From Diadema setosum (lineage: Eukaryota; Echinodermata; Echinoidea; Diadematoida; Diadematidae), in assembly GCF_964275005.1 (NCBI RefSeq), contig NC_092702.1, forward strand, positions 8,666,330-8,730,329: DNA of 64,000 bases, given 5' to 3'. The notes under the pieces were generated by a model. That model made no database searches, was not told the origin of the DNA, and saw only the letters and a list, made by a program, of their open reading frames with translations. Below are positions 2,028-53,990 of this stretch, one piece after another. Numbering within the stretch: position 1 is the first letter of the stretch; each line of letters starts with the position of its first letter. The position numbers and the translations under genes were made by a program.

Positions 2028-2077
2028 AAATTAAAAAATCATCTTATCCACTTCAGGAAATATCCATTGAGGAACAA

Positions 2078-3072: not shown

Positions 3073-4250
3073 TTAAATACTTTGCCCCAGAACCGACCAG
3101 AAAGTGAAATAAAACTCCACTGTGAAACCATCGTTTCCAGGAGCTTTATTACCTTTCATTTCTTTTAAAACCATAAAACATTCATTTATATTAACTTTCC
3201 CTTCACAACTTTCTCTACTCTCTTCACTTAATTTCGGAATATCATCAAAAAATACACAATTTATATCATAAATATTTTCATCATTATTAGAATACAACTT
3301 TTCATAAAATAACCTAATTACTTTCATTATTCCATTTACATCCTTTATCAACTGTTCTTTATTATCATATATTTCCTTAATAACACTTTTCTTTTTATTA
3401 GATTTTAACAATTGTTCAAAATACTGTGTTTTTGTTTCTCCTTCTTCAAACCATTCAGCCCTAGACCGAACTCTCAAACCTTGTCGAGAATACTCATATA
3501 TTTTTCGTAACTCCGATTTCTTCTCCCCTATATCATCTACTACCGCATTGCTGGATGAAACTAATATCTGGTTCTCTAATTCCTCAATATTTCTTTCTAA
3601 CTCCTCTATTCTACTTCTTCTCAATTTTGCTTTATCTTTAGAATAATTTATAACATATCCCCTCATTTTCATTTTCATAAAATCCCATAACAATCGTTTA
3701 CCCTGAATACTCAAACTCAATTCTTCCCTTAATCTAATTATTTCATTACTAAATTTTTCAACAAATTCTCTATCCATACATAAACTGTTATTAAATTTCC
3801 AGTATGACTTACCATAACAAAATATATCTACCAACTGTTCAACCTGTAGCAAAACACCAGAGTGATCAGGCGTTATTGACGTTATTATTTCACACTTTTT
3901 CACAGAGTGTTGTAAACTAGAAGAACAAAACCAGTAATCTAAACGGCTTTGAATAACAGGCCATTTTTGTCTAAACGTAAATTGTTGTTTATTCAGATTT
4001 CTCTTTCTCCATATATCTATCAAATTATATTTATTCAAAAAATCTTCAAATTTTTCATTAAAAACAGTTTTCAACACCTTCCTTGGTCCCATATAATCTA
4101 AACTTCCATTCATTATCAAATTAAAATCCCCTCCTATAAAAAACAATTGATTAGGATTATACAACCTAGATACACTAATATCTAATTTCTGCAAAAACTC
4201 CACTTGCATTCTCTCTTTATCTCTTGTAGGGAAATAACAAGTTCCCATTA
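3073..4250 (-). pseudogene. LINE endonuclease C-terminal half and linker
   Basis: This minus-strand open frame begins inside the endonuclease. GGDFNLIM matches the conserved GDFN block, RLDYWFCSS matches the (S)RIDY block, and TPDHSGV matches the SDH catalytic block near the domain end. About 200 residues of Lys/Glu-rich linker follow. The frame ends with GNKAPGNDGFTVEFYFTFW, the block that opens the RT domain in L1-type LINEs, after which a frame change separates it from the RT body. The first ~25 codons of the open frame read a GC-rich microsatellite, not LINE protein. Confidence 0.85.
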
Positions 4251-4349
4251 CCACACGCACGCACGCACGCACAAGCATACACACCCTCAAAATAACTTTT
4301 CCACGAGGTGCCCCCCCCCCCCTATGTCTTGACCCACGGTACGCCACTG

Positions 4350-4615
4350 ATGAGGGGACTGAATTCTACAAGTTCTGCTTTTTAGCAGTCCCCTCCATTT
4401 CCAGCAAATTTATTGTTTATGCATTTACCACAGTGACGTAACAGTTATGAAGGATAATTTGTATCTCTGTTGATTTTACCTGTATCTCTTTTACAATGTT
4501 ATTCTGTTTATCGCATTGTGGTACTGATTTCATGACGTCTGTGTATACGAGTGTTTCATTGTATTTCTAACTATTTGTTTGTTGGAAATGAAATAAATCA
4601 ACTTGAACTTGAACA
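4350..4615 (+). mobile_element. 3' end of a second LINE (CR1/L2-like), plus strand
   Basis: About 265 bp ends in AATAAATCAACTTGAACTTG, a short-period 3' repeat tail of the sort seen in CR1/L2-group LINEs. The body (CTTTTTAGCAGTCCCC and a T-rich 3' UTR) is non-coding. It lies next to the truncated 5' end of the minus-strand LINE, so two dead LINEs of different groups abut. The assignment rests on the tail only. Confidence 0.5.
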
Positions 4616-12310: not shown

Positions 12311-12518
12311 AGGCGTGTTTTTTTTAGACGGCACTGATTGGGGAAACTAAAAATCTATCGGGGACCCTATTCCTAAACCTAACCCTAATCCTAATCCTAA
12401 CCCTAACCCTAACCCTAACCATAACCATAACCAAAAACCCTAACCCAACGTTTTTCCCATAGGTTTAACACGCGCCATGCCCCAATCTGTGCCGTCTTAA
12501 AAAAAAAACGCATCCCGG
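12307..12518. mobile_element. Inverted repeat enclosing telomere-like repeats
   Basis: The left arm (12307-12343, with TTTTTTTTAGACGGCACTGA) and right arm (12480-12518, with TCTGTGCCGTCTTAAAAAAA) pair over about 38 bp. Between them lies a degenerate CCCTAA array (about 12372-12445). The arms look like TIRs of a small element that carries or captured telomeric-type repeats. Confidence 0.6.
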
Positions 12519-16021: not shown

Positions 16022-16690
16022 AGATTTTTTTTTTTTTTTTTTGTGATGGTCGTTGGCCTTTTGTTTCACATCTGATTTACATCAAATATCCATTCAAAGG
16101 TGGTTTAGGTTTGTTTGCATCATATTCAACATTAAAAGATTCTTTGTGGCAAGTTCTGTTGCTGTCATGGTCACAATAAGCATGTGCTACATTATACACA
16201 GGTATTCTTACTCTATACAATATTTTCTCGATGTAAACGTCAAAGACAACAACATCAGCAACAAAATCTGGGTTGGATATAATGTACATGTCTTACCACT
16301 CTTAAACCACTTTGTGCTGTGTTTGACAGAATTGTGGACTTCTTTTTCAGTGGTTAATTCCTTTAGGTTTTAAACTTTGTCAAATTTGTGTGATATTTTG
16401 AGCCACTTTTATTACCTTAAACTCTTAAGTCATTGGTCAAAAGTTATATTTTAACACATAAATTTCAAGACTATTTCCCTTTTTCATGGTGTCTGAAAGA
16501 GCAATGAAGGTCTTACATTAGATCTTGTTCAGCTTAGGCAGGTTTGCATTCAGTTTGTATGTTTTATGTGGTTTTCTACCACTCTGCTTTAGTTTTCAGA
16601 ATTCATTTGCATGCACACATAAACATTCCAGTTAGTATACCTGTTACAATAATTTTTTTCCTTTCTGGATGCATTGTTTTACTTGTGTAG

Positions 16691-17368
16691 GCAGTGACCA
16701 GACTGCCAGCGTTCCTGGCAAGAGTGATCTTCAGAAGGTAGCAAGTGGCAGCTCTCTACCCATACTGCCCCAAAAACAAAGCAGAGGGCCACATCCATTG
16801 GCACAGAGCGGAGTCGAGAAGACCACGGTCATCTCCAGCAAGCAGGAGGTCATTCAGAGAAACAAAGCAGATCTCCAGTCGCAGTTGGCAAGGATCACTG
16901 GCAAAGAGCCAGTGAAAAGTGAGCACTCTCTTTCTGGCAACAAAATCAGATGCTCTGAGAGTGAGAAGAATGACGGCACTCTTCAGATGAACCCTGTCCC
17001 CGTTGAGAAGTTGAAGTCGACCCTGAAAGACTCTAACAGTAGACAGACAGTGGATGCTGGTAGAGTAAAAGTGCTTCCAAAACGGTCATCAGGTCAAGAA
17101 GAGATGAAGCTGAATGTTAATCAGCAAATGCAACAAAAGGAAGAGGTCAAGCGTGGTCACCAAATCCAACAAGAACCTGGAATTGATCCAGAGAGGGTAA
17201 ACCAAGAGGTTCATGACCAGCAGAAGTCAACCAAGCAAAGCAGTGCACTCAGAAGCAGTCCTATCAAGACTGCTGATGCAGGTAGTTCTACCACAAAGTG
17301 TCCAACAACCAAGTCAGCAAGTAAGGAGCCAGGATCTGTTCTGCAGGACTGCATTAAAACACAAACAG
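16691..17368 (+). CDS. Exon 2 (residues 62-287)
   Basis: The acceptor is TTACTTGTGTAG and the donor CAG/GTGAGA. The frame runs from SDQTASVPGKSDLQK to LQDCIKTQT. It is low in hydrophobics and rich in Ser, Lys, Gln and Glu, with a Gln/Glu-rich stretch NVNQQMQQKEEVKRG and several predicted-flexible segments. There is no recognisable domain. An open run of 226 codons without a stop, with third-base variation, supports it as coding. Confidence 0.8.
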
Positions 17369-18111
17369 GTGAGAATCAGTTTCATAGATCAATCATCACC
17401 TGCCTATCCCCTTCTATTTATTTCCCTCAGGTCTATCACACCAATTTTTGTTTCCATGTTGCAGTGTTTTTTGCTTTCAGTGGAAATGTATCAACAGCAT
17501 GAATTTGTATGCAGTTACAAGATTGTTGGGTCTCTGTTCATTACCAGAGAGCCCCCCCCCCTTACATGCCAACTGGATTCTAAGATTTATGCATGAGTAT
17601 GTACAGCTGAATGGTCTGTCATGATACTAAGTTCTCAGATAGAAAAGTATGCATAAATTTGACTGCAAAAGTGAACTGGTTGATGAAGCATGTCTTAAGC
17701 TCTAACAAAGCTTGAAATGCATCAGGCATATCAAGGTGGTATGTGATGCAATACATTAACTAAAAGAATCTGTTTTTAGTTGCAAGCATTTGCATGCCGT
17801 ACTTCATTACCCTAATTTGGGATAATTTGGGGAGCTTTTTCCTGTTGACAAACAAGGAAACTCTTCATGAATTATAAAATTCATTTCATGCAGCAGAACC
17901 CCACCATCAAATACCAGGTCCAGAGTTCACTCATCTGGACCCCGTTTTATCAAAAGATAATATCGATTTTAAATTTCCTTACCACACAGGCAGCCATAGA
18001 CTTACAGTTGAAATCAACTTTATAATCAATATTAACTCTTCATAAAACAGGGCCCTGATAAGTTTGTACAGCAGTCAATTATCTTTGAAGTTATACTTTG
18101 CTTTCTAACAG
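17369..18111 (+). other. Intron 2
   Basis: 743 bp, AT-rich. It contains a ~120-bp hairpin MITE (17937-18056) just 55 bp before the next exon. Nothing else is visible. Confidence 0.7.
17937..18056. mobile_element. Short palindromic MITE near the exon 3 acceptor
   Basis: The left end GACCCCGTTTTATCAAAAGA pairs with the right end TCTTCATAAAACAGGGCCC, and inner segments (AATATCGATTTTAA / TTTATAATCAATATT) also pair in part. It is non-coding. Confidence 0.6.
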
Positions 18112-19216
18112 CTCCAAGACCATGGCTATTGGTGCCCATCACAACTGAAGATTCTGCTGGAGTGTCTCAGGGTCGCAACCAGCAGCAGAACAACAAGCTC
18201 TCAGATGGTCCTCCTTCTGACCCATCTCTGGTATCAAGGTTTCAGAACACTAGAAGCCATCAAGTGCCAGAGGACCGAAGAGGATTCCCCAAAGGTATGG
18301 ACAAAGGAAGAAAGAAAGAGACCGGTATGCCCCATGGTTCTTCTGGCTTGGCAGTCTTGGGTTCAAAGAGAAAACTTGGCCTGCCAGTGTTTGGTCATGA
18401 AGCTAAAAAATCCTTCCACAGTGGCAAGATGGAGAACCATGGTGATGCCACTAATTCTTCAGAACCAGGAACCACTCTGGAGCTGGAAGATAGTAATACC
18501 ACCCTTAGATCTTCTGACCTTGCTGCATGCAGGAAAAAGGACAATTCTTCAACGTCAGCTGAAGTCCTGACAAGTCGACAAGATGTTCAGCTCCCTCTCC
18601 CTCTGCCCTCCACGGCTGGGAAGGATTCTCAGAATGTTGTGGTGGAAGGCTGCATCCCATCAACTTCTAGTCAGTCTGATGAGATGATGTCACCCAAAGT
18701 ACCAAAGTCTGCTTTGCAGAATGCTGGAAGTATTGTGAGTCCTTTGGCGAGGAAGGTTCTTCTTGAAGAACCAGGAGCACTCATGGATACTGCTACCACT
18801 GATAGAGACCAACCAGAAACAGTTCAAAGAGATGATGAGGGTACTGTCCAAAAAGCACCAGTGCAACTAAAGGAGACCCAAGGGAAGTTGCCAGGTGCAC
18901 TTCTAGAGAATGACAGTGCTAAAGTGCCAGTAGCAAAACAGCCTGCAGCTGACACGCCTGGCAGTGCCAGTGTATCTGATGATGTAGAGGATAATCCTTG
19001 CACATCAGCCTCTCAAGAAGGGATGGAGACTGAGAAGGATGCGGGCATTGTCGATGCTTCTTCTGGAGAGAAGGATGGCAAAGAAACAGGGGAGGCCCAG
19101 TGCCAGGAGGAGGATGATAATGATGATGCCTTGTCCCTTGGGTGTGATGCTGAAGATTTGCTGGAAACCTTGGATGACAACCAAGAGGAAGAATCTGCTC
19201 AACCTAGCAAGAAAAG
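18112..19216 (+). CDS. Exon 3 (residues 288-655)
   Basis: The acceptor is TTGCTTTCTAACAG and the donor AAAAG/GTCAAG. It encodes 368 residues, from APRPWLLVPITTED through Ser/Gly/Lys-rich sequence (GSKRKLGLPVFGHEAKKS) to a strongly acidic end (QCQEEDDNDDALSLG, then LDDNQEEESAQPSKKR). The acidic tract next to a basic cluster suggests a nuclear protein with an interaction surface; this is inference. The alternative frame through 18205-18570 is a shadow. Confidence 0.8.
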
Positions 19217-20395
19217 GTCAAGTCATTTCCATTTGTGTGATGTGTTTGTTGATGTGGTGCTTGATTCACCCTTGATTCACTTTGTGATTTGTTGTACTGT
19301 CTAATCAACATACACTGCAGAGCTGTGAAAGCTCCTTGAAAATGAGAGCAAGATGCACCTTTTTACACATTATATAATGCGAGCATGGTGGAAGACTTGC
19401 ACAAGATATTTTCATTGTTCATCGCTTACAGTTTGCTTCCTGACATATCTTGTATGTAAAGTACATAACCTGAATATTAAAATTAAACACCAGAATACCT
19501 ATACAGCGATCATGCACCAAAAACAAACAGGAAACGTAGTTGTAGTTACTGAAACAGATCATGGTGTCTTTATGAGTGTGTTAAAACTGTCAAGTATACT
19601 TGTATTATTAAATGACTAAATCAGAAGATTTGACAATTCCATATCTTAGAGCTAAAAGCAAAAATATGAAGAGAACAATCACCCCTGACATGTTAAAATG
19701 GATTGAAGAAGTGGTTCTGCTTAGTAATAGTATTTATGACGCGCTCTTGTCAAAATGAGTCAAAAGTCTGAAAAAAAAACAAGTATTTCATGTGTACCCC
19801 TCCCTGAGTCTTTGCTTTAAAGTGATGCGTAGCATTAACATATTCTGTTGATATCATTTTTTAGTTGTTTTTTTTTTCAAGTTTGTAAAGTGTGAACAGT
19901 CAATAGTCAAAAAAGAGAGAAATCCCTTCTAAGGTTTTTGGTCTGTTCTGGATTCTGACCAGATCCACCCATACATAAACAAAGAGAGAAGCAAGCAAGC
20001 AATAATGTCAATAAGTTGCATTGGCAAATGCTGAACAATATGCATGCCTTCAAGATGTTATTCAATATTGAAAATCATGTACAATGAGGCAGTGATGTAG
20101 GAAGACCTTAACTCGGTACAAGAAACATTAAATTGTTATTTTTTTTCAACCCATGCACAATACTTTCACTATTCACAGTAAATCAATACATCACAAATAA
20201 TTTGTGAATGCCACTTGTAATCATTCAAACAATGTGCAAATCAATTCATTTTTTTTTCCAGATTTAACTTAAAATATGTACCTTAGTACCTAACAATGAT
20301 GCAAGGCCTGTACATAGCTACTCTTCCCCTACAATGCAATCATGCATCATACAAATTCAGTAAAAGAATAACTTTTAACCTGCGTGGCAATTTAA

Positions 20396-23975: not shown

Positions 23976-25249
23976 ATAGATTATTTTAACATTATACTTA
24001 ATAGAGACATTATTTTTGTATTTAATTTAGTATTGGGTACTAATTGTCATGGGAAGTTTACATGTACTTTATGTATGGAACTGAAAATTAGCCATGATTT
24101 AATTAAACACACACATCATTATCAAATGCTATCCTCTCTCATGATTTGTTGTAAGTTAATGTTGGACACGTCGAAGTTGTACATACATAAAAAGCTGTGA
24201 GCAGGATGATATCCCTAATTCTTCAGATCCTAAGCAGGAAGTAAGCAATTTTTTTTTGTTTTTACTTTGATTATCCCAATGTCTTATTTTCCAAAAACTT
24301 AGAATAATGGATATTGTACCTATCACCCTCAATAGTATCTAATTCAGTGATACGTGTACATGTATATAATGGTAGTGATGATGTACGCAAGATGTCAAAA
24401 GCCCTGAGTTACTCCCTTTTACGAGTGATTCAACTGGTATGAAATTCCATGGTTTGCAAATGATCGACAATTGAACTTTGGTTACCTTTTTTTAGGAACA
24501 CCTTGTACATCAAATCTTTTAAACAGCTTGTATGCAGATCTTCAATGTAAAACTGTTGATTGATCCACAACCAATTGCAGTGCACCCCTATTAATGGAAT
24601 GACCCATATATTTTTTTTTCCTTTTAGAATTTATAGCTCACTGTTGACAGCTGAGATGAAATCCGATATATCAGTGGCAATGTGAATGGCATCCGTCTTT
24701 GCACCTACTAAAAAAAACAAAAAAACAACAAAAATATGTTCCCAACTCCCAAGTGAAAGTAGGATCCAAACAAAGTTGTGTCAAAAAAAAAAACCCGTAG
24801 GAGAAAAAAAAACAACAACACAATGTTGTTAATGATACTTTTCTTTTGGCATCTTTAGTAGATATGAATGCATTGCTTTTATTTGATTATCTATTTCCTA
24901 ATTTGAATCAATCTCAGTGGCCATTTTTCCTTTAAATTACATCACTGTGCATACTGCAAAACATGTTTATCCAGCTTTTATATTACTCTACGTTACTTAG
25001 TGTATGTAGCTATCAATCCCAAATTGCATGCAAGTCAAGTATTCCAGTTTTTACAACCTCAATGAAATGGTATTTAAGAAAATATTGACTGTTGCATAAA
25101 TCGTAATTTGCCTGAAGAATGTCAAAGCAGCCTTCACATAATTTGCCATCAACAACCAATTCCCCCCCCCCCCCTATTGTAAATTGCATGCAATACACTT
25201 TGAGAAATATGTTGTGATGGAATTTGCTGCAGTGGCCGTCTTTCTCTTC

Positions 25250-28200
25250 TTGTCATGTTGGTAAATTTGCCAATTCCTGAAAGTTACTGGTCCGGTAACA
25301 ATTTTTGCTAGTCTGGGACCGTTGAACCAGTGCCAGTGTTACCTTACATCTTTTTGGGCAAGTGCATGTACACGTATGTATGTTGCTGAGTGCACAAGCC
25401 GGTGGTTTCTGTTGAAGTACCTCATGTCGGAAGTTCAGTTTAGCCTTCAAGGCCTTCAACCTGTCTGCTTTAGTCTTGAGCACACTTTAGTATCATCAGG
25501 ACATTGTTCTGATTGCCATATGCCCCAGTGGACAATTCTATTGTTGTTTCAACATTTTGGACGACTTTTGCCTTTGCTTCCTCAGCGGCTCTCACCTTCT
25601 CTGCCAGTCCTGCTCAGCGACTAAGTTGTATCTGCTGTTATCTTTCCTTGAAAGCTTTGTGAGGCTTACCAATGGCTCTCTGTGACCAAGAAGAATTGAG
25701 CCTTTTCAGTGTCAGTTTCTCCCTGTAATTACAGGAGGGTCTTGCTGTGGGAGGACATTATGTAGGCTTCTATTGCAATTGTCAAAATGTTGGGTTTTTC
25801 CCTGAGTAGTCTGCTGAGATACTTGAACACAGAAAATTGTTGAGCTTGGGCAGTTCATGTTCCTCTGGGCTGGTATCATGCCATCTTACACCTTCAAGGC
25901 GATCTGAGAAATTTCTCTTCAAATGTTGTGGCATGGGTACAAGCATATATCACAACTTAGTCTAAAATCATCAAACATTGTCACTAATGAGTGCTGTTAC
26001 TGAGATCCTTTCATTGTCAAGTGAGTGTTGTTCAGCAATTGGGAGTCTCACAGAACCTTCCATACAGTCTCTGGCATACTCAGTCTCTTGTTGAAGGAAG
26101 TCAGTGATGCTTTGATAAATCACTCTAATTCCCATGACATGGATCTTGGCATCCTCATTGACGTTCCATAGTGGTTGAGTGACGACAATGTACAATGTAG
26201 GTATGATACCAGCCCCAAGTGCCTTGCATCCTGCTTATATTAAGTACTCACTCTTCCGCTTTGAAGTCATGCTTTGAGCTACTTATCATCTGCATTGTTC
26301 TCAAGGAAAGAGATCAGTTCTCCCACAGAAAGAATACTCCAGTAGCATTACTGAAAACAGTATAAAAAATAAATTTCATAGAACTGCTGGACAGAGTTTC
26401 TGAAATAATTGACTCTTTAGCCAGAGTCTTGCACACTCATAGGAATCTGCCATATGGCATCCTGACTTCTAATCACCTCCCCCATCCATTACCTTTAAAT
26501 ACCATTCTGATCAACCTCATTCATCTTGTTCCTGTGATTTGACTTCCTGAGAGACTTATCAAAGAATGCTTTTATAGGGCTTCGAAAAAAAAGAAAGATT
26601 CTTTCTGAGTTTCAAGAAACGATACTACTGATCAATGAGTCAGCCAAATGTACTAGAGCATGTAGGCCACAGAAGAAATTTCACAACTTTCCCAATAACA
26701 GCTTCTCATTTTTGGAAAGTAAGTCGTGATTTGATTCAGTTCAATTCAATTCAATTTATTTCCATCATCAACAAAATAAATCATTAAAGTATGCATTTGT
26801 TAGTTCATGTTATTGAGCAATTTGAAAAAAAAAAAGAAAAGAAATACAGCTCATGAGATATGAAACAATTTCATACAGGTACACTGTACGCTTGTTATTA
26901 TACATCAGGAAAACAATGCACACTTTGCAACAGAAATGAAGGAATAATTGAAACAATGGAAAAGAGCAGTTTTGTGTACTTAAAGAAGCAAAGCTTTTAC
27001 ATCATAGATTACTCAATAATGCTCAACAGTCTGTGGTAGAATATTTCTCCCAGGTTTTCTTCAAGCAGCTCATTTAATATTATGTGAGTACTTTATTGCC
27101 TGGTCTGGTATGGTAGATGAAATATTTAGCAGAACTTTCAGAGCTGTGTCATCTGTACCATGAGAGACTTCCTGTATGTCTTCAGTGCCCATCAGTGTGT
27201 TCAGTACATCATGTCCTGCCATGGAGGCAATGCCTCTAACTCTATAATGACCCTCTTTCATCCCTTACCATCACCGATGTGATATCCCTCATACTTTTGT
27301 CCGTGCTTGGAAGTTTCGACACACCGAAGACCATGGTTTTTCTCCCCAGATATGGTAACTCTTCTGTTGTTGTGCTATTCTCCAAGCCTCATCAGACTCA
27401 ATTCATGTAGACTACTCTTACTTGGCATTCCATCTGTTCTTAACCTAGCTAACTTTAGCACTGAAGTAATTACTGGGCCAATAACTGGGCTAAATGACAC
27501 ATTGTGATTTAGAAGTCCAGTATACATTTCTTAAATTCTGGGGAAAAGTGACTGCTACTGTCCTTTATTGGAAGTGAATCCTGCACCATTTTTTTCTGGG
27601 CCACTGATACTCTGGAATCAGATCTTTCTTTTCAGTGTCCATTTCTGACTCTTTTTCCTTTACCTTTGTCACTTCATCTCTTTCTCTCTCTTTGTTTTGC
27701 TTTTCTACATTTGACAAGCTGTTTCTAAAGCTTAGATTACTTGCATTGAAAATAATGAAGATTTTATCTGTTCCTTTTCAGTTCAGGGTTATTGGTTTGT
27801 AATTTGTCTTTTAAAAAATGACGATTCTCTTGTTTCAGATCGAAGGGGACTGTGTTTTACTGGATGTTCTGGACCTTGTCTGTGGTGGGACTGTAGTTGT
27901 TACTGGTGGTATTTTGGGTGTTGATGGTGGTATAGGAGCTGCAGGAGCAGTGGGACAAGCTATTGTAGGGTTATTGAAATTACAATAATTGAGTTGTAAG
28001 TCATTATGTTCCTTGTCCTTCTGAAGTCTGAGGAGCTTTCATTTAAGTTGTTCAATTTCTATCTGTAAGTATTAAGTGTTAAGGCTTTTTGTTGGGATGA
28101 AATATTGTGTGAAGTTTTCTTCACTGATTCGGTTGACATTTGGATTAAGAAATTTTAGGGCTTCTTTGTTTTTCATTTCACATATCAACTTATCATGCAT

Positions 28201-28990
28201 CTACATTGTATCTCCTAAGAAGGTCTTCAAATTCTTGGTACTATCTATCTTGTACCTTGGACATTGCCTACATGGATGCATTACATTTCCTTCATCAAAT
28301 TTGAACTGCGTAATAAGTCCTCAGCCCATATCTTCAATCTTCTCCATATTCAAACTTAGATTGGCTAATTCTCTTTTAGCAGCATACAGAAACTATGATG
28401 TGATGTATGCCTCCTCTTTCATTGCTTTTTTACTGACAGAATCACTGAAAGAAATTGTGTTACGACATTAGATGGGACAAAACAATGTGAAATCAGAAGA
28501 CACAACCTATCTCTTCTGTTAGTGTGTATTGAAGGGTTCAGAAGCGCTTGACAGTGGAAGATGTCAGTACTAACATATATTCCTGGTTTTATCCCAGAAG
28601 TCTGGGTAAAGCTTTGTATGAGCGGCGAGGATTTGCTGAATTTGAAGCTGGTGATGTGATGGTAGCCCCTCTGTGGTCCTCCATCCAAAGCTGCCATGGC
28701 AGATAGCAATTCATTGTTTTGACCATGGCAGTTTTTGCAGTGGAGCTGTGCGTTCTCCTATCCCAATCAACAGGAACAACAAAAAGAAGTGCAGGAAGAA
28801 GATGATGTCAGAGATAGATCCTTTTGAGACTCGCATTCCTTTGTCCACCAGGAAGCTGACCAGTATGCAAGTATGATGACCTGAAAACCAAAATATATCA
28901 TGAGTATGAATATTGTCTGACTTTTTGTTGGTGTGAATTATTTCCGTAAGTCTTCTGAAGAAAAGCAGTCTAGCAGCATTTGCAAAATGT
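25250..28990 (-). pseudogene. Decayed coding element of an unnamed, marine-invertebrate-expanded family
   Basis: The minus strand carries a chain of decayed coding blocks whose order matches predicted proteins I recall as multi-copy and uncharacterised in corals, amphioxus and sea urchins. From the 5' side: a Cys-containing block (HPCRQCPRYKIDSTKN, about 28.3 kb), a coiled-coil then Pro/Thr-rich segment (PTAPAAPIPPSTPKIPP, about 27.9 kb), a KHGQKYEGYH block with VRGIASMAGHDVLNTL (about 27.2 kb), NFFCGLHALVHLAD (26638-26679), VTQPLWNVNEDAKIHVMGI (about 26.17 kb), and a Lys-rich C-terminal segment ending near LKAKLNFRHEVLQQ (about 25.4 kb). The copy is broken, with well over ten breaks, and a LINE fragment lies inside it. 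A strong acceptor-like TTTTCAG near 28876 suggests the original had introns. I cannot name a function; a transposase-like role is a guess. Confidence 0.6.
26733..26990 (-). mobile_element. Short LINE 3' fragment (CR1/L2-like)
   Basis: TTCAATTCAATTCAATTTAT is the complement of a short-period LINE tail, as at the 29.35-kb LINE. The adjacent AT-rich sequence would be its 3' UTR. It lies inside the decayed 25-29-kb element, so it is younger than that element. The inner boundary is uncertain. Confidence 0.5.
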
Positions 28991-29906
28991 GTCAAAACAA
29001 ATCTTCCTCTCTTTGACTTGTAATTTTGTCAATCCTTTCTTGCAGAAGTAAATAACTGAAAAAACAGAAAAATGCCTGTGAGATTTACTGCAGCTGCAAT
29101 ATTAAAACTACAGATTTTCATGATTTCTTATCTTAGTAGACACAAGGCAATTGTAAAATATATAGTTGGTGATGATACTAATCATTATGTACTTTGATTG
29201 ATATGTACTCTGTCCTAGACTGAAAGTAGATTTTTCTTGACTAAATGAAATCAGAAATGAACTGTATGCCTGTGGCTATGTTCTGAGTACACATAAGACA
29301 GAACTGTCAAAGTGTAAGCGTAAACAGTGTTAAGTATTTCCTACAAAAAAAAATCAATTCAATTCAATTCAATTTCAATTCAATTTGATTCAATTCACTT
29401 TATTGATAATCATATAGAAATATATACAGTGTAAAATGTGTCGGAATGTGTCACAAAGAAAGCCAAAGGCTTGAGACAAGTGATCCCCTTTGTAGAGTTG
29501 GATACATAAGAATATACATGCAAATGCAGATTCAGAGTTACATTCAGAGTACTTACTGACAGTTACAGATTACATAGACAAATAAAATCAAATAAGAGAC
29601 ATATGCTACTACATTACACAAATAAAACAAACAGACAACAAAACTAACAAAGATGGACTGATACAATTCAATAGGCATTTAAAAGATATTTTTTTATATC
29701 TAGACTTAAAAGCACTGAGTGGATACATTCTTAAAAATTGAATCTAAATCATTCCAGAACTTAGCACCTTTATATAAAATAAATTTTTTTGTTTTGTTTT
29801 ATGCTCAAGCGACAAAATGACAACACAATATTATCCTTATTTCGAGTTTCAATGTTGTGTAATGTACGATTCAGTGTAAAACAACCATCAAAAATATCGG
29901 GTAAAA

Positions 29907-30798
29907 TTACATTAGAATATTTATACATAAAAAGGCCAAGTTTGACTGAGACACTGTCAGACACAGAGTATTCAGTTTTTGAAAAAGTGAAGCGGTGTGG
30001 TCAAGAGGGTTGGCGTTTGAACAAATCCGAATTGCTTTTTTCTGTGAAACAAATAAACGACTCAAATTAGTTAAGCTTGTTCCAGACCATACAAGACTAC
30101 AGTAATCAAAATGAGGCAAGATAAAGGCATTATACAACATAAAAAGAGCATGTAACGGCAGTATTGAACGGAGCTTATGCATTATACCAATAGAGATACT
30201 AATCTTCCCATGAATACTATTCACATGTTTAGAGCAAGTCAATTTATCATCAATAATAACTCCTAAATGAGTAATACTATCTACTCGATCAATAATTTGA
30301 TTATCTATCTTAATTTCTGAATACGAAATCAATGAAACATCTTGTCGAAAACTTCTGTTAGAGCGGAATATCATATATTTTGTCTTATCAACATTTATCT
30401 GTAGCTTATTGGCTTGGAGCCAGTCACAAACGTACATCATTTCAGTGTTAACAGCACTACACAGAGTATTTACGTCTCTATGTGAAAACAATATATTTGT
30501 ATTATCTGCATACAGAATGAATCGTAAAAATTTTGATGTATTTATTATATCATTAACGTATACCAAGAAAAGAAGAAGGCCCAAAATACTGCCAGGAGGC
30601 ACCCCACACGTTAAAGGTAATGTACTAGAGTTTGTGCCATTAATGTGAACTGTTTACGACCTGTAAGATAATCCCTGAACCAACTGAGGGATACACCACT
30701 AACACCAGAGTGTTCCAGTTTGTGCAGCAAAATGCTATGGTCAAGTGAATCAAAAGCTTTACTTAGATGGACGTAGAAGGCAATTACGGTTTCATATA
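29907..30798 (-). pseudogene. LINE RT, C-terminal part
   Basis: After the internal TIR element the minus strand resumes at ETVIAFYVHLSKAFDSLDHS and continues to WFRDYLTGRK. After a disturbed patch it continues with MPPGSILGLLLFLVY, ILYADNTNILF, LQANKLQINVDKTKYM and ITHLGVIIDDKL, then the post-RT thumb and C-terminal region. The second catalytic Asp pair reads DN instead of DD, enough alone to suggest an inactive enzyme. Confidence 0.8.
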
Positions 30799-31335
30799 CC
30801 CCGTTTATACTAAGGAAAAAGCGGGTTTTGAAACCCCCTGTAGCCGCTTCGAGCAGGCTTTCAGCTCAGTATAAACAGACAGAATTCAGAAAAGGCGATC
30901 CGGTCGGGTCCGGTCGGGTTCTGAAACCTCCTACGGGGGGAGGTTTCAGAACCCGCTATAGCAGGCTCGAGGAGGCTCGACAGCAGTATAAACGCTAGGG
31001 GGTTCGAAAAGCCGCTTTTTTGCCGACCCGGAAGTTATCTGGAGGTCATCGCGCGTTCATGATGTAAACAAGCAACTGCACCGGATCGCGAACCCACGTT
31101 GTTATAAATTCGCGCTCAGCAGTCACGTTTCCGCGCGAAAGTGATGCCACGAAAGCGCGCGCCGGTTTTCAGAGGGGAATTCGGTTACCATAGGAACGGA
31201 AGCCGTGACCCTGCTAAGACCCGCTCGGGCCTGCTTTCGCTCGCGCAGTATAAACAGACGAGAGCCCGCTTTTTCGTAGCGGGTTTTCGAACCTCCTCGA
31301 GGCGGCTCGAAAACCCGCTCGCAGTATAAACGGGG
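30799..31335. mobile_element. TA-flanked TIR element inserted in the LINE RT
   Basis: The ends are CCCCGTTTATACT and AGTATAAACGGGG, perfectly complementary and flanked by TA (30797-30798 and 31336-31337). The subterminal motif CAGTATAAACAGAC recurs and the GC-rich body has inverted segments (GCGGGTTTTGAAAC / GTAGCGGGTTTTCG). The RT reading continues in frame across the site when the element and one TA are set aside, which confirms the boundaries. It is non-coding. Confidence 0.85.
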
Positions 31336-32177
31336 TATTTGTTGTCAAGTGAAGCAAGGATTTGTTGGAGGGTATGTAAAAGAGCTAAGTCAGTTGAGTA
31401 AAAGGGTCGAAATCCAAACTGTTCTTTGGCCAGTATTTTGTTCTGGAGCAAGTAATCATACGATCTATTATAGATAATGCATTCCAGGATTTTGGAAAAT
31501 GCAGGTAAAAGAGAAATAGGACAGTAATTTTGTAATGCTTGTTTTTCGCCTTTCTTATAAATTGGGATTACTTTGGCTATCTTAAATGCGTCTGGTACAA
31601 CACCTGCGGTTAACAACAAATTGAATATAATTGAAAGAGGTTCGGCAATTGCAAAAAACAGTCTTCTTAATAAATACAACACTTATGTCATCATGTCCAG
31701 CAGACGAAGTATCTTTTAAACGTTGTACAACCTTGATGGTTTCATTTTCATCAGTAGGAAAAAAGAATCCTGATATTATTTTCTTGATTGGCCAGATGAT
31801 CTGAAAAATGGTTTGAGGATTTGTTGAAATTTTTTGAAATACGAGAACCTATTGATGCAAAATAAGAATTGAATGCATTGGCAATCATTTTGTCATCTTC
31901 TATTAATCTATGACCCTTCAGAATACGTTGAGGCAATCTTGAGGCATTGCTTTGTCTACCCAAAAATTTCATTAAAAGCTTTCCAAGTTTTACAAATATC
32001 ACTTTTGTTTCGTTCCAGTAAAAGTGTGTAATACTCTTGCTTCCGTAATCGAATATGTCTCAAGTCTATTTCTACGAGTGTATATCGTTCGTGCAATAAT
32101 TCATTTCTTTTGGAAGGGGAAGTGATATGTTTTCGATATAATCTCAGCTTTTTTGCAATTGATGACATAATAATCAA
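31336..32177 (-). pseudogene. LINE RT N-terminal part and linker
   Basis: The minus-strand pieces include SPSKRNELLHERYTLVEIDL, ANAFNSYFASIGSRISKN (the conserved fyF..i block before the RT), LLLTAGVVPDAFKIAKVIPI, then YKKGEKQALQNYCPISLLPA and KILAKEQFGFRPFYSTDLAL. The order is normal for a CR1/L2-type ORF2, with frame changes between pieces. Confidence 0.75.
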
Positions 32178-32310
32178 TAAACATGATCAAGACTGAATTG
32201 AGCGTAATAGATAAAATCGCATGTCAAAGTAAACAAACAATATGTCTTTGAATACGCTGTGAATTCATGTCGAAGGCAAAAGTGTAAGTGCAAATAATGA
32301 CAAGAATTAC

Positions 32311-32665
32311 CTGCTGTGATGACCCTTCACAGTTGACTCCAAAGATGCCACACTTTCAGGGTGTTAGGAAATAGATACATTTGTAGGTCCAGGCTGCTGT
32401 GGGTATACAGGATAGTGGATCTGTTGGGCGTGATCAAACTGGGCAGTTTTGATCCCCAGCTTTTTCATCATGCAGGGCTCTATTACATCTTGATGCCCTT
32501 TCCTGCGGGACCTCCTTCTGTCTCTTTGCATTTCTCAGATGGACAAGCTGCTACATCCAACACATCTCTGCTTCTCAGCCTCTGCCAGATTGGCACTCAT
32601 GTTTTGCTGGCATTGCCAACACAGGTTACTCATAAGCTTGCACACCAGTATGTGAGGGGTGTTTG
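32311..32665 (-). pseudogene. Coding-like Cys-rich segment with a donor-like end
   Basis: A minus-strand frame contains CWQCQQNMSANLAEAEKQRC and CVGC (two CxxC pairs, zinc-finger-like), then Arg-rich and Pro/Gln-rich sequence, with two in-frame stops. It ends at CAGCAG/GTAATT, a good donor. Its position upstream of the LINE, and the acceptor-like site near 28876 beyond it, suggest a decayed first exon of the 25-29-kb element with the LINE sitting in an intron. This is inference and the family is unknown. Confidence 0.35.
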
Positions 32666-38455: not shown

Positions 38456-38899
38456 CTAATTGCTCTGGGAATGAGTGAGTGTATTGCCGTTATCTAGCTC
38501 TACTAATTCTCCATCTGGAAAGTGTCTGTCTTCGATTGCTGTTGAAGACTCTGGACAGTTGGGGACAAGAGATGTAGACGATCTAGATTTTCTAGATGTT
38601 GTAGATCTGGATCTGATGTTTGTGTTGTTATATATAGACCGAACAATTAGACCCAGAGGCCGTAGTCCATCTTCAGGTCCTGATGTCAAGGTGCTGAACT
38701 TTGTCCCTTGTAGTTTCCTTGAGATATTGGCACTCATCTTCTTCTTTTTCTCGTCACTGGCTCTCGCATAGCTTTTCAGAGATGATTTTGATTTGTTACC
38801 CATCACTGCCATTATACCGCGACTAGCGAAGCCTGCGCGATCTAGCGTCGTTACTGTCGTCGCTCTCAAGCTGTGATTATATAGTGTAGCGGTTGACAC
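38456..38899 (-). pseudogene. Tyrosine recombinase catalytic C-terminal part
   Basis: This is the longest intact piece of the Crypton frame: HSLRATTVTTLDRAGFASRG, IMAVMGNKSKSSLKSYARAS, then KMSANISRKLQG, and a Ser/Arg-rich tail ending at 38456. The catalytic Tyr lies in SLKSYAR. The canonical His of the GH(K/R)S motif is Asn here. Confidence 0.8.
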
Positions 38900-39227
38900 A
38901 TCCAGCAGTCTCGCAGATCTTCCTCATCTTAATTCCCAAAGTATTCATTCCCAATGGCACATTGTCATACCAAGGTCCTTCCGATGGAGTTGAAGATTTA
39001 GGTCGCTGCCAAAAGGTGGTTGTTTGGGGGTTCGAGGAAGATAGATACTTGAGCAGTGAAGCTTGAGCAGTGAAGCAGCTGGGCTTCTCGAAGAGCCAGG
39101 TATTTCATACATACGACCACCAAATTCTTCGTCTTAATTTTCACGATGGGATTTTGTAAGCGTATCGCGATGTTCGAAGTAACGTTGCCCATCATTGGTG
39201 TGGAGGACATAGTTTTGAATTTTCATG

Positions 39228-39764
39228 TCACGAAGATTTTCGCGTCCTCTCTCTCCAAAATATGTCATGACATCTAAAAACACCTTGTTTTGGAGACCAA
39301 GTGGTGTCTGTGTTGACGGCATCCAACTCAAAAATCTTCGCCATGTCACTGTCAGTCACTGCTGTCTTGTGCTTAACGAACCCTTTCCCCTCCTTCTTAA
39401 GCTTGACCATCATGGCTGTGAAGACACTGTTACTTTCTGGATATTTCACTTGGTCAGTAATGTCTTCTCGCTTTGTGGATTGAAAATGACAATACACCCC
39501 ATACTTGATCAAATGCATTGATTTCTTGGTGTACAAACTCCCATCTTCCTTACGCAGACTGGCGTAAAATCAGGAGAGAAACCGATCCAGTTCTGACGTG
39601 GGCAAACTTTCAATTTCAGCTAGTGAGGTTGACGCATATCTTGCAAAAGATTCTAACTGACTCGTGGCAAACTTCATGTTTCTCTTAGTATTATGGGCAT
39701 CGGAGTCAGAAAATAGATCCTCCAATTCTTGGTCTGTTAACAAAACAAAATTCGGTCCTGCCAT
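39228..39764 (-). pseudogene. Tyrosine recombinase N-terminal core-binding part
   Basis: LESFARYASTSLAEIESLPT, FYASLRKEDGSLYTKKS and FTAMMVKLKKEGKGFVKHKT match the N-terminal half of DUF3504/CryptonA recombinases. It is split by one stop and a frame change from the TPLGLQNKVFLDVMTYFGER block. Confidence 0.75.
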
Positions 39765-40149
39765 GATGACAAACTCGGCATATATACTGCACGCACTGAT
39801 CTTATGAACTGTATGTATATAAGCCTACACACTACATGTCGTATATTCGATCTCTTTCGATTGCTACGATACGCGCTAGCTACTAGAGTCAAAACACTGC
39901 GTAACGTAGAAGTATGCGTGTGACATCAGAGCGGAGTGATAGAACAAAAACTTGCAGTTGAGTTTAACACGGGAGTCTATGGAAAATGGTGACATCAGCC
40001 ACACGCTATATATCCATTTTTGCTCAAACAAAATTGCACGGCTGACAGCCACAGCGTGTGATGGAACTTTTAACTAAATGTCACGTGATGGGCAATCGAC
40101 CAATCAGATAGCTACATTCTAATTAGGTGTTGTATAATATGAAATTCAC

Positions 40150-41438
40150 CACTACCACCAGCTGATTCCAGTGCACTAGCTAAACAATAGCAAAATGCAT
40201 GCTCAATAGCTAGTTAGAATTTCATTGTTCTACAAAACACCTGTTACTCTAATGTGATTGTTGAGTATACGACATGTGGCCACTGGTTCAGTATGAGAAT
40301 TGAAGTGAAGCTCTTAACTGAGCTATGAAGTTTAATTGGGACACCTTGCAGCACATAGAACAAAAGAAAGAAGTCCACTAATCACTACCATGATGAGCAG
40401 ATTATGTAAATTCAATGCACTTTGCTACCCCTTTCATAACCTATTGTCTTAGCACACCTCACTTGTAGTATTGGGATGGGGTCAAATGCTTCAGTGCAGT
40501 TGCATGTTTTAGCAATGAGAGTGGAATCTGAATGCTGACGAGAACAAGAGCTGTGTGCAAATTGAAGAGAAAAAGTGAGAGTTAAGTGGGTTTTGAAAAA
40601 GAAACATAAAGGTCAAAACTAGTTTGTTATTATTTCCTCATTTCTCGCCAAAAATTCTGGTACTGGTATATGAAAAAAAAAATAATAATAATAGTAATGC
40701 AAAAAAAAAAAAAATCAACAACAACTGACCCATGTAATGAATTTTTACCTTGTCCAGCCCACAACAGAGAAAGGAATTGTGACTTTTAAAAGACTCATTT
40801 TGACAGAACGTTACACATTTGAAGAGTCACACATTGACTATGTACAGAAGAACCTATACAGGCCCAGACACTTTAGAGCATCAGAGGATTTTTAAATAGG
40901 ACTGAGTCATCAGTATTGTATCCGACATGAAAACATTATACATTAAGGACAAAAATATCAATTTAAAAGCATTGTTAGCATGATTGTTAGATTAAAGAAA
41001 AAATATGTGATTGAAATGCTCATGAATTTTTACAAGACCACTTCCTGACCAGTGTCAACTGCACAATCTCAATATAAACTGAATGGTACACGCAAAAATG
41101 TGTGGGAGATATGAATTTCACTAGCTGTACTGTAATGTAAATGTGGTATATTGTGCAATGTGATTTATTAATTCTATTAAATGCTTCACTGACCTGGCAT
41201 GAATTTAAATGAATATGTAAATATTTATGGGAGATGATGAATTATGTGCAAAATGTTGCCAGCTGAATTATAACATGTAATGTTTGTTGAAGATGGCTCA
41301 ATAATACGAAAAAAAAAAAGAGATAATGATGATAATAATCACATAAAAGTTTGCATTTTGACTTCTATTCTAATGCTGTGAAATACTGCATCTCTAAGGC
41401 ATGGAAGTAGCACAGGAAACAAAACACAAAAGTGACAT

Positions 41439-41473
<35 letters not shown>

Positions 41474-42129
41474 TCTATTTATTTATTTATCTTTTTATTG
41501 GGGGTGGTGTTTTCTTGCTTAAATTGTTTTTTTCTTGTTTGATAGATTGTGTTTTGAGGGGAAACTTGACAAATACATGGTACGTGTATGAAGTGTGAGG
41601 AAGATTAATGACAGAATGGGTATAGTATTTGGTGTTCCCTGAAGAGACTGAATTCCTTGAATGAAATACGGAGCTGTTATGAGGAAAACGAAGAGAAAGA
41701 ATAGAATCTCCACACCTACACGATATAATCAAAACACACTGTTAGAGTGAATTATTTATAAAACAACCTAGTGACTACACCACACATTACCCATGGAAGA
41801 AAGTATGAAGTGTTTCAGAGTGAATTGGGTAAATGTTCATAGTTGTTATAGCAATCTTTCTCCAAAATATATGACAAGCTACAGAAAACAGTGTAAAGGG
41901 AGCATTTTATAGTGAAAGGGACTTTCAGTAGCAATTGATATGAAATAAAAAAAAATGCAAATCATAGCACTGTATACAGTATTATCAATGGGCATCTTGA
42001 AGATCATGAACATATAACCAATAGTTCTCAGAATGATGAAAGGATGATATGACATATTATGTAACAGTAATTTTGTATAGAGGATTGAACATAGAAAAGA
42101 GGCATAATTGCTAAGTGAACATACATTGT

Positions 42130-42160
<31 letters not shown>

Positions 42161-43944
42161 AAAACACACAATTCTTAATACAATGTACATGTACAAACAT
42201 GTACATTGTATAATCTGTCTTTTAAAAAATGGATGTACAATAGCAGAGACACAGAAATGTGGATATTTGTACCCTGCATATATTTTTATTTTTCTGCGTG
42301 TTCCCCTTTTTTTATTATAGCAGGGCCAACATGGTCTTTTGTTGTTGCCGTTAATTGGTATTCCCCCATAGCAATGAAGCAGGGCCTATTTGTCATATTT
42401 TCTTGGTTTTGTATAATCTATAAGTCAGCTGGTTAACCTTGCTCTTAGAAAGAGAATTCAAGCCACAGTCCACTTATTATTCACAACATTCAGGGCATAA
42501 ACCAGGGATACCAAATGACAGACAAAGCCTGAGTGTAAGGTCCAGGCAATCAAATTTCTAGTCCTTTTATGTAAAAATTACCCTCTTGAGATTTTTTGTT
42601 CAACCCTCTCAGGTATCATTGCCAGAGATTTACAGCTTATTTATCTTGGTGCGCAAAGGCAATGTATTCTCTTGTAACATCTACTCTCATACCTCAACAT
42701 TCCCATGCACACAAAACTTACTTTTACAAATATTATACCTTATGTTCCTTCACTCTCTTGAAGGCTAATGCACATTAATCAAGTCTGTGCATTAATCATT
42801 TAAGACTAGCCACATAAGTGACGTTTAGCTGGCTGCATTTTTGTGTTCATTTTCATGTGCATAATGTTTCTTTTCATTTTTTATGTATTTGCACTAATTT
42901 CTCTAGCATTTAAATGGAGAAACTCAACTTTCATTTTTCTTGCATTACAAATATTTTTCTAAGCATAATATCAAATCCAGAAATGGAGTTCATTTGTATG
43001 ATTTTCTGGCAGGCAAGTTTTAGTTGTTGTTTTTTAGGCTTGTTTTGCATTGACAGTGACAGCTTAATGACCAATAAAAGTCATTACTCAATTTATGGAA
43101 ATTATCATAGATTAGCAGGACATATATCTGACCTCTATGGCTAGTTTCTCTGATAGTCTTTCATATTCAAAATCAAACATGAACATGGATTTGAATATGA
43201 GCACAATGGGGGAAAAATGAAAGAAAAACAGTGAAAGGTTTTTACACATGAATTGCAGAAACATTTAGACCTAAATACAAAAGAAATATAACTATCTGTA
43301 AGCATTATGATGGAGTTGTAAACTTGATAGCTTTGCTCTACTTTGAAATGAAAGCAGATCCTGCATAAATCATATCTCAGATTATTCAAATTTATTGTCA
43401 ATCAGTTGCAATATCTAAAGTTAGCTTGATTCTTTGCCATAAAAACTTTGGAAGATGACAGAATTTTCAAGTAAATATGAATCCAGGGATTTGTTCTGGT
43501 GCATCTTTATGTAAAAAATTATAAAATGCACTACTAATTTGTTGTGCACTACTAATTTGTCTTGCACTGCTAATTTGTGTAACAACAGATATTTAAACAA
43601 AAACAGTGACACAATTGTTCTTTAAGAACAGTTTCTTCAGAATTTTTGTTTGAAGACATCCTCATATTAAGAGAAAAATTAATAATGGTAAAGATAGATC
43701 AAATGATATTTCTTGAATAATTCCTAGAAAAGAGGCACTATGTAGTTGTGATGACCAATTTCAAATAACTCTTTGTCTTCCTTTCTTTTCAAACAACTGA
43801 ATATTACCTTGTGAAGGATGTTTCTGTTTACTAAAATGGTGTAAAGACCTGCCCCATTTGACTTGCCCCTAACTTCTGCATGTCCTGTACAATATATACT
43901 AACGTTAAGAATGATCCTCAAAAACAACAAAACCACATATCTAG
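40150..43944 (+). other. Distal part of intron 3, no gene seen
   Basis: AT-rich sequence with (TTTA)n at 41439-41495, (CA)n near 42131-42160, and three tandem ~18-bp copies of GCACTACTAATTTGT at 43528-43580. Frames here are short and without protein-like composition. Confidence 0.6.
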
Positions 43945-44205
43945 ACCAGGGAATGATGTCATGGGTAGCAAATCCCAGGCGCCGATATTGAAACTCTTGC
44001 CGAGATCGAGACAGACATCATCTTCTGACCATGGGCAAAGGTCGCAGTCAGAGACGGAGAAAGGACGGACAGGGGGCATCCAAGCTGTGGCGCCAGCCAG
44101 ACCTCAGGACCAGCGGGCCTCCCATAGCTCGCCCCCTCCTACCTCTCAACAGCGGATTCCCAGCAGAGGACCTGACGACAAGTCTGATGCTCCTCCAGGA
44201 CGAAG
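43945..44205 (+). CDS. Exon 4 (residues 656-742)
   Basis: The acceptor CATATCTAG has a poor pyrimidine tract, but a consensus branch-point TACTAAC lies about 40 bases upstream. The donor is CGAAG/GTAGAT. The exon completes the split Arg codon of exon 3 and encodes PGNDVMGSKSQAPILKLLPR, then Ser/Arg/Gln-rich sequence (RQTSSSDHGQRSQSETEKGR) and a Pro-rich end. Its GC content exceeds the flanks. Alternative AGs at 43977 or 43969 would also fit or shift slightly. Confidence 0.65.
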
Positions 44206-45054
44206 GTAGATGGAGACTAAATCTTGTAGAAACTATAAAGTTCCATGAATGCAACTTTATTACACCTTGTTTTCATCGCACCCCCCCCCCCCCCCAAGGA
44301 AAAACCTCCAAGATGTTCACAAGATTTTCAAAAAATTCCAGTAATCCAAGGTCATTATGGATTGTATATCTGAACATACCAGTACTCGGAGAGAAAGGGC
44401 ATATTATAGGTCTAGTAAGGCAAGTTATTCCTCTTTTACTATTACTAGTTATTTTGGGTGCACATCACGAGATCAACACCCGCGAGTCATACAGCCCACA
44501 AGTCATACAGCCCATGAGTTTGACACTAGGCAAATAAGGCCCACGAGAACGACACATTAAACCCCATGTTGTATCTATCGAACTCGTGGGCTGTTTATAT
44601 CTAGTGTTGAACTCATGGGCTTTATTTGCCTAGTGTCAAACTCGTGGACTGTATGACTCGTGTGTCAGTCTTATGGGATGACCCCGTTATTTTCTTCTGT
44701 ACCAGGCATAATGACTAGTACCCTGTAACTTTTATCAGACTGCTACATAATTGCACAGTCCTTTTACTCCACCTCACTCCTTTTCCTTTTGCCATCTCTC
44801 TTTTACAGAAGGTACAGTGTAAGGAAGACTGTGCCAGAGATTTAGATTGCACATTTCAGAGATTAACACTTGATATTAATAAGTATAAGTCCAGAAGAGC
44901 AGTTGCTTTGGCCCTCTGCATGTTTTCGGGATTATTTCTTTTAAAGTATTATGTGTATTTACAGTGCTTGTTGTTCCATGCCAGAATATCATCATTGCAC
45001 CCTTATATTGCCCTGTGCAGCATTTCCTTTAAATCCACTTTATTTTACTTCCAG
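44206..45054 (+). other. Intron 4
   Basis: 849 bp containing a poly-C tract (44280-44296) and a ~190-bp inverted-repeat MITE at 44480-44670. No other feature. Confidence 0.65.
44480..44670. mobile_element. Inverted-repeat MITE, ACTCGTGGGCTGTATGACTC family
   Basis: CGAGTCATACAGCCC, GAGTTTGACACTAGGCAAAT and CCACGAG on the left are matched on the right by CATGGGCTTTATTTGCCTAG, TGTCAAACTCGTGG and CTGTATGACTCG. The repeated ACTCGTGGGCTGT word occurs in both directions. No coding. Confidence 0.7.
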
Positions 45055-51093: not shown

Positions 51094-53990
51094 GTTAGCT
51101 GGGCAGTAGGAGATGAGGGATACTTGTTAGACCCTGGAGATTTTGCACCTTTCTTTCTCTTCCCTATTTTCTATGTTAAGACTGTTTTCACTCACTTTAT
51201 TTGTTCCATGGTAGGCTGATATCATCATGTTTGCTTTGTTTCGAAAAGAAAGAAGTACTACAATTCCATTTTTCTGTTAGCTCTGATTGCAACATGTTAA
51301 TGATTTCTATGAATGTGTAACATAGTGCAGCCAAGCCTTATTTGATCTTGGTTATGCAGCCCAGGAAGTAAAACATGTAGACATGATGATGATTATACTG
51401 CTGAAAATACTATTCCTCACCAAAGTCAGCTGTGTTACACACTAAGCAGTGCTGCTGTGATAGTCAGGGAGATATTTGCAGATGAATGTACTAAGCAATA
51501 GAGTAACATGGAATACTAACAGATGTATGTGTATTAATCTGTGTGTGTATTAATCTGTAGAAATACATGTTTAGATGTAGCTTTACATTCACGCCACTCC
51601 TAGCTGGACTGCCAAGTACCAAGTAGACTTTATTATTTTTTTTTTTTAATGCAAGAAACAGTTTTTTTTTTTCTATATAAGAGGGTATGGTTTTGAAATG
51701 AAAAAAATATTTTACATCAAAACATTAATTAATATCCTCAGTATGTTCAACTTTCCCAATTTATGAACCAAGACTTGTGGTGTGTCTCCAAAATTTTTTT
51801 TTTTGTTTTTATTTGTTTTTCTTTTTAAAGTAAGGATCAGTGTGGTTTCAAAAGTTATCAACTTTATTTTGGTGGCATTTACTTTAATAAAAGGAAGGAG
51901 AGAGGAAAAAGAATTAGTAGAATGGGGGAGGGGGAATCCTCGGTGCAAAGTATCTGATAAGTTGCTCTTTCATCTCAGTAATATAGCCATGGAAGAAACT
52001 CACAAATCATCAGGTGTAATCTGCCATCTGGCCAGAATTAGAATTTTGGTCCTGGAGCAAAGGTAATACTAACTGCATACCATCTGAAGGCAAAGCTGAC
52101 ATGAAAAATCCAGCCCAAATTCAGGTTGTAATACTCTCCAACATTTCATGCCAATTTGACAAGGGGTACAGGTTACTGAATTTATAACTTAATGCTGTAC
52201 CAGCAGCAGTCTACTGGCCACACTATGTGGTGCACTGTGGAATGACGTCAATGTAGTTGATAATTCAAACTTGACTTCATGAGTTAAGGTTAGGAAATTG
52301 TTTGATTCATGTAACATTCAATTGCGTTAAATGCGTAATTATATGTTATGCCTTGAAATTGAGGAAAACTTTTTGATTTTAAGGAAACGTTTGCTCTGGT
52401 CTGTGTGTCATTCTGTGATTATTCAAAGTTATTTGATAAATATTTTCAAATGTAGTTTGAAAGTAGATTTATTATATCTTTGTCTAGCAATGACCATTAA
52501 GTCATTGCTTACTGTCTCAGTCTTTTTAATAGATATTTCCAAATTGAATTTGTAGCTAATCTTATTGTATTGATAGTTGTCACTAGGTGAATATTATGTA
52601 CAGGTTGTATTGGACATATCTATGCCTCATTAATTTTTTAAGTTTTGTACATGTACATACTTGACTACCTCTGATCTGGGAAACTTTGCAATTCTATAGG
52701 AACACCCAGTGTACCCATTTTCAAGCAACTGGATGCACATTCTTCACCTGTTGTGTACATAATTTGTTTGCCCTATGTGCAACTTCCCTGAAATCATTCT
52801 TCATGGCACATACTGCAATATGCAGTCCTTCACTTTTGTTTTCCCTGAGTGGCTTTCTACTCAATCTCTTCTTTGTTTTTACCTCTGTGTATTGCTGCTC
52901 TTTGTTTAACTCATATCATTCTCAGGTCCACTTCTATTCTGAGGACAAGAGCATTTTCCCCATTTCACATAGGATATTGTCTTATAAGCTCAGCAGTTTT
53001 GGTGTGTTACTTTGTATTTGGCAGACACTTTCCTTGTCTTTCCAATGTACCTTATGTCTTTACTGTGTTGATGGTGGAGCATATTCTTTTTTCTCTTTTA
53101 GTACATTTGTGGTATCTATTGTTTTATATAAACACTTGGTGAACATGTTGTGTGAGGTGTAATAAACATGCAGTACTGTAAGAGTGGAAATTTTCGCGAT
53201 GTTGAAATTTTTGCGCATTTCGAGCAACCTGAAACTAGCGTGAAAATAAAAGCTCGCGAATATTTTTGCGTGCCATATAGTCCAGTAGTTGATGTCTGGA
53301 TTCTGCAGAATTAAAAACATGCGAAACTCTTCTTACCCGGCCGAGCGCGAAAAATTAGTCACGCGAAAATATCCGCTTTTACAGTAATAGATTTTACTAA
53401 CACTAAATTGAGCTTTACATGATCACATTATTGATTCTGCAGCAAAAACAGTATTCATGTCATCATAAATGTCAAAATTTGAAGTCAAGTGATTTTTCAA
53501 CTTAACTCATAGCCAGCCAGAGTTGAATTTTCCCATTAATGCATTTCATAATTTGGCAAATTTTCTCTGCAATTATTGCACCCAGCGTGGAATTTACTGA
53601 AATGAAATATCAGCATCAAGAATGTATAAAGTAAATGTATAGCCATTAATATACATGTAGTTACAGCATTTTAAGTTATTTTCAAGTTTATGGAAGTAAT
53701 CGTTGAATTTGTAATACTGATATTTTTGCTCTACTGAGGACAATTTTGAGTTATGTAAATGCTGAAAATTTGATTTTCTTTGTAACTGCAATCTCCAAAG
53801 TAAATGTGCAGTCTCTCAAATTCAGACTGCAATACCTGACAAGTGAGCTGGTGTATTTGAAACTCCAGGCAGGAAGCAATTGTGGTACAAGTCTGAATTT
53901 GCTATAGAAAATTTGTAGGCACATCACAGTTTGCTGTGGATGCTCATGGCATTTATTGCTGTTATCTTGTCTTTGGCCCACTGTTAGCAG
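51094..53990 (+). other. Intron 8
   Basis: 2.9 kb, AT-rich, containing one MITE (53176-53384). A 158-codon frame (52686-53162) is hydrophobic and low-complexity and looks like chance reading of T-rich sequence. Confidence 0.65.
53176..53384. mobile_element. TA-flanked MITE with CGCGAAAAT inner motif
   Basis: The ends CTGTAAGAGTGGAAATTTTC and (reverse complement) CTGTAAAAGCGGATATTTTC are flanked by TA (53174-53175 and 53385-53386). CGCGA motifs recur inside. Two relatives lie at 55543-55707 and 63013-63210. Tc1/mariner-like target; no coding. Confidence 0.75.

Follow-up and report, generated by a model that had tools for sequence, protein, structure and literature searches.

The interval 25250-28990 of the 64 kb window, by which we mean the whole stretch of DNA analysed, is a real coding fossil: conserved blocks follow one another in a fixed order along the minus strand of a heavily decayed gene copy, and they belong to a coding family that has no model in the libraries searched. 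We read the interval as a dead copy of a large gene from an animal family that we take to be multicopy, one that most likely encodes a DDE transposase of the C/DxxH class carried by a DNA transposon, and we give this reading a probability of about 0.55. Within it, we infer the DDE chemistry, the cut-and-paste movement and the multicopy state. More tentatively, the copy could be a relic of an unnamed animal DNA-transposon superfamily that keeps the hAT-like D...D...CxxH order, is too divergent for Pfam and has spread through many invertebrate genomes in the guise of 'uncharacterised' proteins. Should the large protein families that are listed as 'uncharacterised' for corals, amphioxus and sea urchins be transposases, a class of transposase has gone unnamed, and mobile DNA inflates both the gene counts and the lineage-specific expansions of those genomes.

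A sequence-only reading of the same interval had called it an unnamed coding element and had quoted four peptides as an ordered series. A letter-for-letter search finds all four exactly in the window, on the minus strand and ordered along it: KHGQKYEGYH (27279-27308), NFFCGLHALVHLAD (26639-26680), VTQPLWNVNEDAKIHVMGI (26127-26183) and LKAKLNFRHEVLQQ (25409-25450). These four occupy two frames, and the addition of further blocks brings in all three minus frames. Corals, amphioxus and sea urchins would, on that reading, hold the family among their large uncharacterised protein families; we assume the same, in both cases with no accession, and the two assumptions may have one common source.

We wrote down eight short blocks expected for the family (B1 to B8), after the window translation had been read, and searched them against the window; 60 first-order resamples, matched in dinucleotide content, served as control windows. 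The best window match lies in place and in order for seven of the eight blocks (E 8e-8 to 0.03). Along the minus strand, the conserved blocks are preceded by a Lys/Glu-rich open stretch without a Pfam match (NVEKQNKERERDEVTKVKEKESEMDTEKKDL..., 27568-27777), a possible coiled coil that we presume to be part of the gene. B1 (VITSVLKLARLRTDGMPSKSSLHELSLMRL, 27384-27473, E 1.4e-6) lies in a common frame with B2 (ETSKHGQKYEGYHIGDGKG, 27261-27317, E 5e-5), the proposed first-D region. B3 (KVLLNISSTIPDQA, 27097-27138, E 0.03) is the proposed second-D region, and its D is present. B4 (NFFCGLHALVHLADS, 26636-26680, E 1.8e-6) carries a CxxH motif, CGLH. The weak B5 (FYTVFSNATGVFFL, 26326-26367) is in place only as a second-best match at E 0.33, its best match falling off-place on the plus strand (28145-28225, E 0.003). 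B6 (AGCKALG...VVTQPLWNVNEDAKIHVM, 26133-26234, E 8.5e-6) lies inside an open stretch of 87 codons at 25974-26234, B7 (SVFKYLSRLLREKPNILTIAIEAYIMSSHSKTL, 25735-25833, E 7.7e-8) is the strongest block, and B8 (25409-25542) is split by a frame change into NRIVHWGIWQSEQCPDD and TKADRLKALKAKLNFRHEVLQQ, with E 1.8e-4 for the pair.

None of the 60 resampled windows reached the observed score for B1, B2, B4, B6, B7 or B8 (the better piece in the case of B8), one did so for B3 and 43 for B5. Because B5 reaches E 0.003 off-place, the E of 0.03 for B3 is weak on its own. Four of the blocks (B2, B4, B6 and B8) overlap the peptides quoted earlier; among those that do not, B1 and B7, both absent from the earlier list, score strongly, whereas B3 is a borderline case and B5 does no better than chance. 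Since the blocks were written down after the window had been read, the result is a controlled lead and not a blind proof.

The order of the motifs is what suggests a transposase. The CxxH of B4 (CGLH in 26636-26680) lies downstream of the D-bearing block KVLLNISSTIPDQA (27097-27138), whose D may be catalytic, and the resulting D...D...CxxH order points to the C/DxxH DDE transposases. Of the three acidic residues, the window copy has a second D, and the E was not located; at the expected place of the first D, the residue before ET in B2, it has a V. If the family does have D there, the V fits a dead gene. A living protein of the family would have a coiled coil and a helical block at its N terminus. 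Its first acidic residue would be close to the KHG block and its second in the block represented here by STIPD; the CxxH motif, within NFFCGLH, would come next, with a long stretch separating it from the last acidic residue. Such a transposase would excise the element and paste it elsewhere.

Among the named groups, hAT transposases have a BED finger and hAT insertions duplicate 8 bp of the target, and Kolobok elements have a TTAA duplication. The interval is like hAT in its proposed order of D block, second D block, CxxH and long stretch, but unlike hAT in that the window pieces sent to Pfam have no transposase match and no last acidic residue could be placed. The C/DxxH signature is described for hAT transposases, and as shared by those of Kolobok, MuDR, P and Dada, in two papers (PMC10045372, PMC9587614), the second of which reports a zinc finger for almost all Kolobok transposases. 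That signature is the likeness of the interval to Kolobok, MuDR, P and Dada, and the lack of a Pfam transposase match for the pieces sent sets it apart from them as well. Its likeness to the uncharacterised multicopy proteins presumed in corals, amphioxus and sea urchins lies in the seven expected blocks, out of eight, that match in order; unlike those proteins, the window copy is decayed.

Searches for a described family gave little. Pfam reported no family at cut-off for nine decayed pieces, a set that excludes the KHG block, the only listing being NinH at E 0.15. Nine further Pfam queries, drawn from seven of the eight expected blocks, two window stretches and the tip of a bacterial contig described below (L029), also gave none at cut-off, the best being Med9 at E 0.012 (16.1 bits, short of its cut-off of 26.9). 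Among the interval pieces sent, no transposase, integrase or reverse transcriptase (RT) profile matched, a search in which short pieces have little power. One piece searched against PDB sequences found nothing below E 0.31, and there were no Rfam matches at gathering scores and no tRNA. In the literature searched, six motif strings of the family were found in no paper and no described family was recognised. The earlier idea of an unnamed coding element is thus upheld as far as the decayed colinear coding blocks, the lack of a Pfam family at cut-off and one likely natural relative (L029) carry it. Its further statement that the machinery has not been named is perhaps too strong, since the D...D...CxxH order points to the named C/DxxH DDE class.

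The same failure of the transposase profiles would fit a host pseudogene, from a multigene family that spreads by ordinary duplication without mobility and encodes a protein with some other nuclear function. The flanks of the interval would fit it too. In a comparison of 24300-25399 with 27800-29349, the best inverted repeat scored 16, and among 200 resampled pairs 45 scored at least as high; for the best direct repeat, 40 of 200 did so. Neither stands out. We nevertheless consider a host pseudogene unlikely, given the transposase-like D...D...CxxH order and a neighbourhood in which RT remnants occur, together with one weak match to a tyrosine recombinase. Under the transposase reading, the lack of standout terminal repeats may reflect the decay of an old copy, or the true ends may be elsewhere. 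A second copy is not evident within the 64 kb window, by protein pieces or by DNA: weaker second matches of the protein pieces reached E 0.15 and 0.53, and a self-comparison of 24001-32500 with the window gave only two palindromes. Because the copy is old, the repeat and second-copy negatives count weakly against a mobile element. A possible second copy at 42035-42082 (16 residues, E 0.009) was judged to be chance after the three minus frames of 40000-44500 had been read.

The neighbourhood also bears on whether the interval was an accessory ORF of another mobile element, be it a tyrosine-recombinase element, a retroelement or a Polinton-like element. The window holds RT remnants on the minus strand at 29910-30653 and 31188-31682 (profile matches, the second below its cut-off) and a weak phage-integrase match at 38459-38923. 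The RT remnant, however, lies outside the interval and seems to own a tail at 29354-29397, and the interval pieces sent have no integrase or RT match, which makes this explanation quite improbable. The tail is a (TTGAA)n-like run about 0.5 kb downstream of the RT remnant on the minus strand. A like run at 26736-26760 ends a probable later insert between B3 and B4, placed approximately and by eye at 26720-26995 on the minus strand; of the insert, only the run matches 29354-29397 well. The gap between B3 and B4, at 416 nt, exceeds the spacing expected for the family. A fair reading is that a truncated retroelement inserted into a gene copy that was already present, the insert presumably being the later arrival. 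Between the two halves of the RT remnant there is also a MITE-like element of about 543 bp (30793-31341). Its ends are inverted (ATACCCCGTTTATACT ... AGTATAAACGGGGTAT), two palindromes lie inside it, and by open-frame coordinates the ends overlap the 31188-31682 half.

The transposase reading takes the gene copy to be dead, and the heavy decay claimed for it from the letters alone is borne out. The two halves of B8 are in different frames, 17 nt apart (25475-25491), and the KHG block meets a stop codon right after GDGKG. A second frame change occurs across the 122 nt that separate B2 from B3. Stop codons number 48, 47 and 50 in the three minus frames of 25370-27790, each of 806-807 codons, although the stretch at 25974-26234 (minus strand) is free of stops for 87 codons. 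The apparent decay might instead be that of a functional gene with introns, for which there could be room between B3 and B4 (416 nt), B4 and B5 (268 nt) and B6 and B7 (299 nt). This is very improbable in view of the stop after GDGKG and of the frame change in B8, where 17 nt is too short for an intron and the change is therefore decay.

A likely natural relative from outside the window came from a motif, C(x)ALGL(I/V)xKxxTxP(L/F)W, that is expected for the family and whose residues differ from those of the window. Back-translated and scanned over 11.3 million prokaryote contigs, this CxALGL-type motif gave a single match, at bases 32-79 of JAHZJL010000178.1, a gammaproteobacterial MAG contig of 21,982 bases (L029); about 0.004 matches would be expected by our own arithmetic under equal base frequencies, a figure that does not come from a tool. 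The motif FFCGLH.LV had no match in the same collection of 11.3 million contigs. The frame at the L029 tip reads AACRALGLISKFVTGPFWRLLESDTISL, and its residues AACRALGLISKFVTGPFWRLLES align with window positions 26142-26234. Within the 8 kb L029 locus, a window piece from the 87-codon stretch finds the tip at E 0.006. In the reverse direction, the best window match of the L029 peptide is the homologous 26142-26234, tied with another match, and its score is reached by 35 of the 60 resampled windows. Because of the tie and these 35 windows, L029 is better evidence for the family as such than for the copy in the window. Bases 1-120 of L029 look like sequence of the animal family, so the MAG contig may be chimeric. 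We take the sequence after the tip for bacterial genes, and we infer that the tip is animal DNA probably joined to a bacterial contig.

That no gene ever stood here and the resemblance is due to chance is scarcely credible. In its favour are the writing down of the blocks after the window had been read, the chance-level scores of B5 and of the L029 peptide, each taken alone, and the E of 0.003 for B5 at the wrong place. Against it, seven blocks lie in order, six of these outscore every one of the 60 resampled windows, and none of nine reversed controls fell below E 0.05 (lowest 0.058).

Relatives were also sought in viral, phage and plasmid sequences. The NFFCGLH pattern occurs in 28 viral contigs, in which tblastn with eight window pieces gave only the 7-12 residues of the motif itself; their translations, read by eye, held no other block. 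Viral contigs with the GNRFN pattern (six) and the NTMSDR pattern (four) were judged by eye, after translation, to be chance. The CxALGL and FGxLD patterns had no match in viral contigs, and a search of viral contigs with the 87-residue piece gave no close relative. The one phage match by tblastn (E 0.8) was rejected, being out of frame with the open frame at that place, which we take to be SusC-like. Among plasmids, the L029 tip and one window piece were both without a match.

Other parts of the window hold further remnants and repeats. The phage-integrase match at 38459-38923 on the minus strand is weak (E 0.0065, below cut-off) and the nearby 39231-39569 on the same strand has no match; the two may be a Crypton- or DIRS-like remnant. 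A non-LTR retroelement remnant at 1176-4365 on the minus strand matches RVT_1 at 2081-2953 (E 1.3e-39) and includes an endonuclease-like match at 3076-4365 on the minus strand (E 4e-4, below cut-off), and the start of the window around this remnant has a strong C-rich skew. At 12364-12446 there is a telomere-like tandem run of ACCCTA in 13.7 copies. Finally, host gene exons may account for three plus-strand stretches, open from stop to stop, at 16636-17502, 18036-19304 and 53908-55080 (288, 422 and 390 residues), none of which matches Pfam at E 0.01.
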